Source of the DNA: Candidatus Amoebophilus asiaticus 5a2
GTDB taxonomy: Bacteria; Bacteroidota; Bacteroidia; Cytophagales; Amoebophilaceae
DNA length: 64,000 bases
Direction: 5' to 3'
Assembly (NCBI RefSeq): GCF_000020565.1
Contig: NC_010830.1
Coordinates: forward strand, 1,716,001-1,780,000
Under the pieces are notes generated by a model that saw only the letters and a list, made by a program, of their open reading frames with translations, did no database searches and was not told the DNA's origin. Of this stretch, positions 27,309 to 56,669 are shown one piece after another. Both the position numbers and the translations under genes were made by a program. Numbering within the stretch: position 1 is the stretch's first letter; each line of letters starts with the position of its first letter.

Positions 27309-28574
27309 ATGCGCATAGGTATTATTATGGGCGGCTTTTCAGCCGAACGCCATATTTCTGTAGAAAGCGGGAGAAATGTATATGAAAAGCTGGCTTCTTC
27401 TGGAACATACACACCTATTCCTATTTTTTTGACTGGTACACCCCTACAACATTCACTATTTATTTTACCCATTCATATTTTGCTAAAAGATAGTGCTGAC
27501 GATATTCATGAAAGACTCAAGCATATTTCTACTACTACGGACAATTCAACTAATTGGACTGAAGAGCCAGCCATAGATTCAATTATTAAAAAGTATGTAG
27601 GTTCATTTACCATGCAGCCTACAGCTATAACCTACCAAGAATTAGCACATTTAGTAGACAGTGTTTTTATTGCTTTACACGGGCGACCAGGAGAAGATGG
27701 AACTTTGCAAGCTATTTTAGAACAGCATGGGTTGCCCTACAATGGTTCAGGGGTGACAACCACAAGCCTTACCATTGATAAATTTGCTACTAACCGCTTT
27801 TTACATAAGCATGGGATATATGTAGCCAATCAAGCTGTGGTTACAATAGACCAATGGAAAAACAATACGCCAGCAACTATAGAGACTATTGAAGCCACTT
27901 TTAAATATCCATTTATTGTTAAACCTGTAGATGATGGCTGTAGTGTAGCTGTGTTTAAGATTCAAAATAAAGACATGCTTATAGCTTATGCAGAGAATAT
28001 ATTTAGAGCAGATTCTAACCAACCTACTAATCTTACACAAGTATTAGGTTTAAAACCCAATGCAGCTTTTCCTAATTATCAACAATTTTTGGTAGAAGAT
28101 CTAATAGAAAAAGGGACAGCCACACATTTTTTAGAAATTACAGGAGGACTTCTAACACATTTAGATGAACAAGGAAATCGGCAATATGAAATGTTTGAAC
28201 CTTCTGAAGTAGTTGCCACTGGCGATATACTGTCGCTTGAAGAGAAGTTTTTAGCAGGTGAGGGACAAAATATTACACCAGCTAGATTTCATCCAGATCC
28301 TACTACCAACCTTGCTATCTCTACAAAAGTTAAAGAAGATCTGCAAAAGGTAGCGCAACTAGTAAATATTGAAGGGTATGCTCGTATTGATGCCATGGTA
28401 AAAATATATCCTACACACATAGAAACTTGGATTATTGAAATTAATACCTTACCAGCACTTACACCTGCTACTTGTATTTTTCACCAATGTGCTATAAACG
28501 GTTATACGCCTTTTGATTTTATACATACTATTATTCAATATGGATATAAAAAAGCTCGTATAGCAACCATATAA
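27309..28574 (+). CDS. ddl: D-alanine--D-alanine ligase
   Basis: This 421-residue ATP-grasp enzyme joins two D-Ala for peptidoglycan stem peptides. The start MRIGIIMGGFSAERHISVES has the family GG-SxE-HxVS motif. The central LHGRPGEDGTLQAILE and YNGSGVTTTSLTIDK, the ATP-grasp Lys in FIVKPVDDGCSV, and the C-terminal GYARIDAMV and IIEINTLPALTP (metal and D-Ala binding) are all seen. It is longer than usual (300-370), mainly from extra sequence after the first domain and before the C-terminal block. It overlaps the PASTA gene by one base (TAATG), so the two are translated from one message. Confidence 0.93.
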   Translation: MRIGIIMGGFSAERHISVESGRNVYEKLASSGTYTPIPIFLTGTPLQHSLFILPIHILLKDSADDIHERLKHISTTTDNSTNWTEEPAIDSIIKKYVGSFTMQPTAITYQELAHLVDSVFIALHGRPGEDGTLQAILEQHGLPYNGSGVTTTSLTIDKFATNRFLHKHGIYVANQAVVTIDQWKNNTPATIETIEATFKYPFIVKPVDDGCSVAVFKIQNKDMLIAYAENIFRADSNQPTNLTQVLGLKPNAAFPNYQQFLVEDLIEKGTATHFLEITGGLLTHLDEQGNRQYEMFEPSEVVATGDILSLEEKFLAGEGQNITPARFHPDPTTNLAISTKVKEDLQKVAQLVNIEGYARIDAMVKIYPTHIETWIIEINTLPALTPATCIFHQCAINGYTPFDFIHTIIQYGYKKARIATI

Positions 28575-29470
28575 TGCCTTTTCTTATGTCATCAAAAAGA
28601 ATAAAAAAAATGATTGCCATTTTGTTTTTACATGTAGGACTTATATCAGGTATTCTATGTGGCTTGATATGGATGTTTTTCCAATGGGGTCTTCCTGCTA
28701 TTACTAAACATGGACAAGCCATTACAGTACCTAATCTTAAAGGAATACCTATTGAAGAGCTAAAAGAAATTTTAGCTACGCGGCATTTACGTTACAAGCT
28801 TACTGAAGATATTATCTATTTACCTAGCTATCCACCTTCTGTAGTACTAGAGCAATATCCTAAGCCTGGTGCACATGTTAAAGAAGGAAGAAGCATTTAT
28901 ATTACACTTAATGCTGCACAGCCACCAGAAGTAGTTATGCCTAATTTAGTAGATGGCTCTGTAAGAAATGCACATATTACTCTAAAAAGTAGAGGACTTG
29001 CTTATAATACTATTACATATGTTACTGATATTGCAAAAAACGCAGTATTAGAGCAATGGTATAATGGAAAACCTATTGATCCAGGCACACGAATTCCACA
29101 AGGTTCTAAAATTGATTTAATAGTGGGTGCTGGATTGAATAAACACTTGGTAGTAGTTCCTGACTTAATAGGTATGCCAGCAGAAGAAGCTGAGCTATTA
29201 CTTTTAGATGCGGGCATGTGTGTTGGGAAAACAGCTTATGAATATATTGATTTGCTACAATCCGGAACAATTTTCCAGCAACAACCTAAGGTAGGTAGCC
29301 AAGTAAATTTAGGAGATCCTATTCATATATGGGTGGTAGAAGCCAACCCGCATACAATAGATGTTGAGCCTAAAATAGATGAACCTATTATAGGAGATAA
29401 GCCTATACCGGATGTTGTTGAAATCTATTCTGACAGCAGTATGCTGAGTATAGAATCTGATTTACAATAG
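28574..29470 (+). CDS. PASTA-domain membrane protein, C-terminal tail cut by a MITE
   Basis: The protein has a short cytoplasmic start, one helix at about 13-36 and three PASTA domains at about 51-114, 118-186 and 192-256, followed by an acidic tail. PASTA modules in other bacteria bind peptidoglycan or muropeptides, and Bacteroidota commonly have such a gene next to ddl. A start at the second Met (MSSKRIKKM) is also possible. The TAG stop at 29468-29470 is created by a 97-bp inserted element. Deleting the element and one AAT repeat lets the frame continue 39 more residues (YNIPTAEDTNQSND and on to DSLEIESQ) to a TAA at 29687. The domains are intact, so the shortened protein is probably functional. 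Confidence 0.9.
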   Translation: MPFLMSSKRIKKMIAILFLHVGLISGILCGLIWMFFQWGLPAITKHGQAITVPNLKGIPIEELKEILATRHLRYKLTEDIIYLPSYPPSVVLEQYPKPGAHVKEGRSIYITLNAAQPPEVVMPNLVDGSVRNAHITLKSRGLAYNTITYVTDIAKNAVLEQWYNGKPIDPGTRIPQGSKIDLIVGAGLNKHLVVVPDLIGMPAEEAELLLLDAGMCVGKTAYEYIDLLQSGTIFQQQPKVGSQVNLGDPIHIWVVEANPHTIDVEPKIDEPIIGDKPIPDVVEIYSDSSMLSIESDLQ

Positions 29471-29565
29471 ACCCGCTGCGAAACAAAAAACCCCATTATT
29501 TTTTCGCCCTTTAGAGCATTTATTGGCTGTTTTTTGTATATCAAAAATCGTTTCGCAGCGGGTCT
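29469..29565. mobile_element. 97-bp MITE-like element
   Basis: AGACCCGCTGCGAAAC at the left end and its exact complement at the right end enclose 65 bp of non-coding sequence. AAT is duplicated on both sides (29466-29468 and 29566-29568). The inverted repeats match those of the 989-bp IS at 48018-49006 apart from a few bases, so that transposase family is the likely driver. It sits inside the PASTA gene. Confidence 0.88.
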
Positions 29566-29705
29566 AATATAACATTCCTACTGCAGAGGATACTAATCAA
29601 TCAAATGATAATATTTTAGAGGAAGAAAAAAATGGTAATCCTAACGCTATAACAGATGCGGATAGTTTAGAAATAGAATCTCAGTAAAATAAGTATCAGT
29701 TTTTA

Positions 29706-29740
29706 GCCTTAGCTATATTATTCAGTATATAGGCTAAGGC
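29706..29740 (+). terminator. Hairpin after the ddl-PASTA operon
   Basis: GCCTTAGCTATA pairs with TATAGGCTAAGGC (one bulge) 18 bp after the ancestral stop of the PASTA gene. It lies between the convergent PASTA and dapA genes and could serve both. Confidence 0.55.
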
Positions 29741-37209: not shown

Positions 37210-37389
37210 AGACCCGCTGCGAAACAACTGCCGTAAAAAAATAGAGGAGCATTTTGCACAATTCAGAAAATATAAAAAATAAGAATAGACGTTTAAAGTA
37301 TAAAAAACGCAGGTTGAATTTTTATAAATAATAAATTTAACTCTCAAAAATCTAATGTTTTTATCGATCTTCTGTTTCGCAGCGGGTCT
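37210..37389. mobile_element. 180-bp MITE-like element, copy in ankyrin gene
   Basis: The ends AGACCCGCTGCGAAACA and the complementary TGTTTCGCAGCGGGTCT are perfect inverted repeats; ATT is duplicated on both sides (37207-37209 and 37390-37392). The interior is non-coding. It matches the 180-bp copy at 56490-56669 in the opposite orientation, including the TTTTGCA-AATT block and the AGAGTTAAATT block. Confidence 0.9.
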
Positions 37390-56489: not shown

Positions 56490-56669
56490 AGACCTGCTGC
56501 GAAAGAAGAAATTGATAAATACACTAGATTTTCCAGAGTTAAATTCACTATTTGTAAAAATTTAACCTGCGTTTCACATGCTTTAAATGCATATTTTCAT
56601 TTCTTGTATTTTCTCAATTATGCAAAATGCACCTCTGCTTTTTTATAACAGTTGTTTCGCAGTAGGTCT
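56490..56669. mobile_element. 180-bp MITE-like element, intergenic copy
   Basis: The ends AGACCTGCTGCGAAA and the complement of AGACCTACTGCGAAA are inverted repeats with one mismatch. AAT is duplicated on both sides (56487-56489 and 56670-56672). Length and internal blocks equal those of 37210-37389 in reverse orientation. No coding potential is seen. Confidence 0.88.

Follow-up and report, generated by a model that had tools for sequence, protein, structure and literature searches.

The PASTA-domain gene beside ddl in the amoeba symbiont Candidatus Amoebophilus asiaticus 5a2, a conserved gene of cell-wall type, carries a 97-bp MITE near its 3' end, and this insertion has given the gene a new stop codon and cut a 39-residue tail from a protein that most likely still works. 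The whole account, in which the MITE would have been moved by the transposase of ISCaa6, is one that we hold with high confidence. The window, that is, the whole stretch of DNA that was analysed, comprises 64,000 nucleotides (bases 1716001-1780000) from a genome that forms one contig of 1,884,364 bp. Features are listed in Table 1, and positions are those of the window unless the genome is named.

Table 1. Features in the window that bear on the shortened PASTA gene and on the MITE family
Feature	Position	Strand	Remarks
ddl, D-alanine-D-alanine ligase	27309..28574	+	Pfam Dala_Dala_lig_N and _C
PASTA-domain protein, present form, 298 aa	28574..29470	+	3x PF03793, N-terminal hydrophobic stretch
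Target-site duplication AAT, left copy	29466..29468	.	
Present stop TAG	29468..29470	+	T of duplicated AAT plus AG of element end
MITE, 97 bp, terminal inverted repeats AGACCCGCTGCGAAAC, without transposase	29469..29565	.	Four identical genome copies
Target-site duplication AAT, right copy	29566..29568	.	
Disconnected former 3' end of gene	29569..29687	+	Together with T of the left AAT copy, gives the lost 39 residues and TAA
13-bp hairpin just past old stop, possible transcript end	29706..29740	.	Fold z = -1.56
180-bp MITE, duplication ATT, in ankyrin-repeat gene on minus strand	37210..37389	.	
180-bp MITE, duplication AAT	56490..56669 (genome 1772490)	.	Adjoining frame short, 62 codons

The last base of the ddl stop codon is the first base of the PASTA-gene start codon, and the same gene order, with ddl directly upstream, was found in the sister species (G001, locus L100). 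The PASTA protein was matched in 54 of the 57 genomes searched. Its PF03793 score was 104.9 bits against a curated cut-off of 23.2, in three stretches of which the best covers residues 193-254. All three domains lie upstream of the insertion and are intact, as the first-pass annotation had stated in calling the PASTA modules untouched; the N-terminal hydrophobic stretch and the remaining frame are intact as well.

The inserted element starts with AGACCCGCTGCGAAAC, and its other end is the exact reverse complement, so that the 16-bp terminal repeats are perfect. Identical copies are located at genome positions 222638 (ACT), 237148 (ACT) and 1271145 (AAT), giving four copies in three different contexts with the target duplications AAT, AAT, ACT and ACT. 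The copies at 237148 and 222638 lie about 14.5 kb apart, in one longer duplicated segment. Matching flanks at two copies (95% over 1-117) initially pointed to an element of greater length or to duplication of a gene end; both ideas were rejected when the alignment limited the shared unit to 97 bp. The element is short and non-coding, with terminal inverted repeats, near-identical copies and a target duplication, as is expected of a MITE. The earlier claim of a MITE insertion in the PASTA gene was thus borne out by the 97-bp unit, the AAT duplication and the identical copies elsewhere, and the element does supply the present stop, its AG following the T of AAT. In the account that we favour, this non-autonomous element entered the ddl-linked gene close to its 3' end, at an A-N-T target, and the 3-bp duplication set a T directly before the terminal AG to give an immediate TAG; the protein was thereby shortened by 39 residues, with no foreign residues added.

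In order to compare tails, the residues beyond position 256, past the last PASTA domain, were counted in 29 orthologues with loci. The median was 8 residues; 28 orthologues have 0-22, and the sister species has 60. The A. asiaticus protein has 42 residues beyond its third PASTA domain at present and had 81 before the insertion, and the 42-residue remainder is longer than the tail of every non-Amoebophilus orthologue examined. The sister species is the nearest relative, with a PASTA protein that is only 69% identical and no element inserted in the gene. Its 60-residue tail is acidic and Ser-Thr-Pro-rich; the portion in the position of the lost 39 residues does not align with them, and a search of the sister genome with the tail DNA found no homology beyond the PASTA-coding part. 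Conservation of the 39 residues in relatives, which had been put forward as a check, was therefore not found, since the sister tail differs in sequence and the other 28 orthologues end within 0-22 residues of the domain. These comparisons show the tail as a fast-evolving extension at the level of the genus, and the lost part would be an acidic, probably disordered tail past the third PASTA domain. Because the remaining tail still exceeds that of every non-Amoebophilus relative examined, the effect of the loss was probably near-neutral. With the loss confined to a fast-evolving part beyond the third domain, the shortened protein is likely to have remained functional.

Orthologues that lack the tail and end at the present stop had been named as evidence against a shortening. 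The orthologues do lack the tail; they do not end at the present stop, mostly ending before it. A related explanation is that the element inserted just past the original gene end, and that the 39-codon open frame behind it is intergenic and open by chance. This would agree with the orthologues, which lack this tail and mostly end earlier, and openness alone is weak evidence of coding, because 10.7% of the 39-codon stretches in the window's intergenic DNA are open. The insertion point argues otherwise. Removal of the element and one AAT (100 bp) gives an empty site with a 337-codon frame running unbroken to TAA 29687, compared with 298 aa now, and the duplication places the insertion within a codon of this open frame, which reads TAT, not a stop, once the element is taken out. 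In a codon model contrasting the 34 long ORFs of the window with intergenic triplets, the tail scored +15.0 bits, a value reached by 1.0% of the open intergenic stretches, and its other five frames were strongly negative (-11 to -47). The sister orthologue, too, has a long acidic, Ser-Thr-rich tail. A frame open by chance is thus extremely improbable; the codon score and the insertion point inside a codon make it very likely that the tail was formerly coding. The claimed shortening by 39 residues accordingly stands, and tail-less orthologues do not refute it, because the target duplication and the coding score show that the frame once ran on. The likeness of DSLEIESQ in the lost part to SSMLSIESD before the insertion, noted in the first-pass annotation, carries little weight, both being acidic, low-complexity sequence.

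Two further explanations accept the shortening and differ in what it would mean. The TAG and the element's hairpin might together form a functional new gene end, acting as a stop and a 3'-end stabiliser or attenuator that alters PASTA-gene expression. The single-strand fold of the element is strong (-37.1 kcal/mol, z = -7.4) and lies right behind the new stop; such folding is, however, expected of any MITE with long inverted repeats, a U-run is absent and there is no sign of selection, and we regard this role as very unlikely. Past the old stop, a terminator scan found no canonical terminator, and the hairpin there is weak and without a U-run. The PASTA protein could instead be a decaying pseudogene, with the tail loss as one step and a truncation that matters. 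IS elements and truncated copies abound in the genome (PMC3196728), and the gene has an interruption close to its end; yet all three PASTA domains are intact, as are the hydrophobic stretch at the N-terminus and the remaining frame, and the residual tail outruns that of every non-Amoebophilus orthologue examined, so that decay of the gene seems highly doubtful. A trimmed protein that still works is the reading that we prefer.

The element belongs to a larger family. When up to 3 mismatches to the terminal repeat were allowed, a genome scan found matches at 141 places, compared with 15 for a reversed control pattern, and pairing of ends in the stretches read yielded at least 29 short elements, with lengths of 97 bp (4 elements), 170 bp (2) and 180 bp (23). 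The 180-bp elements fall into several subfamilies, while the terminal repeat is common to all 29. Exact 3-bp duplications of the ANT type flank 25 of the 29, for which the probability by chance is approximately 4e-11 even with ANT required on both flanks; identity of the flanks was found once at 2 bp and never at 1, 4 or 5 bp. Because a T closes the target and AG opens the element, a TAG arises exactly where the two meet in one reading phase, and this was seen on both strands in all the subfamilies that were checked. A 97-bp-type element with 77% identity is present elsewhere in the genome of the sister species, with AAT on both flanks. No published description of Amoebophilus MITEs was found, and the words MITE and miniature are absent from the IS survey of this genome (PMC3196728); the 97/170/180-bp family is apparently undescribed.

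Of the 29 elements, the majority are located outside long open frames, a count in which frames may have been missed at the eight elements with flanks shorter than 350 bases. The MITE at 37210-37389 is adjoined by open frames on both sides (223 codons before and about 71 after), and another 180-bp copy, at genome 1118672-1118851, is located in a second ankyrin-repeat gene that is open for 141 codons before it and about 172 after. At genome 1434802-1434981, where a Sel1-repeat-type gene ends, a 180-bp copy is open in the frame of that gene for about 52 codons and would thus contribute element-encoded residues to the protein; the ankyrin and Sel1 assignments come from reading the repeats, not from a domain search. 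At genome 1479957 a long frame adjoins the MITE, beside a transposase-like frame. It is conceivable, and in our judgement rather far-fetched, that ANT-targeting elements, with a T/AG junction on each strand and a strong hairpin, act as a ready-made stop and 3'-end cassette, tail-trimming insertions being tolerated or kept as gene ends.

A candidate source of transposase is present in the same genome. Elements of 975-989 bp with the termini AGACCTACTGCGAAAG or close variants contain a single ORF which, from its first ATG, encodes a 275-aa DDE transposase (Pfam DDE_Tnp_4). These fit ISCaa6, described as an element of the IS5 family, ISL2 group, 991 bp long with one ORF of 275 aa (PMC3196728). 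ISCaa6 resembles the MITE in its terminal repeat (13 of 16 bases) and its 3-bp ANT target duplication, but is 989 bp long with a transposase where the MITE is 97 bp and non-coding, and the two have no internal sequence in common; the 97-bp copies were not among the matches listed when the genome was searched with whole ISCaa6. No closer autonomous partner was found among the matches listed in a terminal pattern search allowing 3 mismatches. The ISCaa6 transposase would be the probable mover of the MITE, although the enzyme responsible may have been a different IS5-type transposase, whether still present or since lost, because only the ends are shared. At genome 1577890-1578111, an ISCaa6-like copy contains a nested 180-bp MITE, which has AAT on both sides and lies 42 bp from the end of that copy.

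Exact 3-bp duplications were found at 20 of 25 full-length ISCaa6-like copies, all ANT except one ATG, and at 12 of 12 in the closest subgroup (97-100% identical). The published survey gives the direct repeats of ISCaa6 as 0, and it argued for transpositional inactivity in part from the lack of direct repeats in most of the IS elements (PMC3196728). Probably the element as drawn at 991 bp includes the T and the A that do not vary in the ANT target, which would hide the duplication. These duplications show past transposition, not present activity, and the experiment in which no IS movement was seen over 984 days (PMC3196728) therefore stands.

The PASTA gene offers a clean case of a mini-transposon that has changed where a conserved gene ends, apparently doing little harm. 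The mechanism, a MITE insertion, is ordinary and the event is real; of more use are two side results, namely a family of MITEs that is apparently undescribed and the finding of 3-bp target duplications at ISCaa6, an element for which the published survey of this genome gave no direct repeats (PMC3196728). In comparison with bacterial MITEs in general, the Amoebophilus element has the same terminal inverted repeats, target duplications, near-identical non-coding copies and candidate partner IS in the genome, and there is no categorical difference; every junction here spells TAG. The host gene shares with the ddl-linked PASTA proteins of Cytophagales its adjacency to ddl (also seen in the sister species), a hydrophobic stretch near the N-terminus and the presence of three PASTA domains, and departs from them in its tail, with a median of 8 residues in that group compared to 42 in A. 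asiaticus, and 81 before the insertion.
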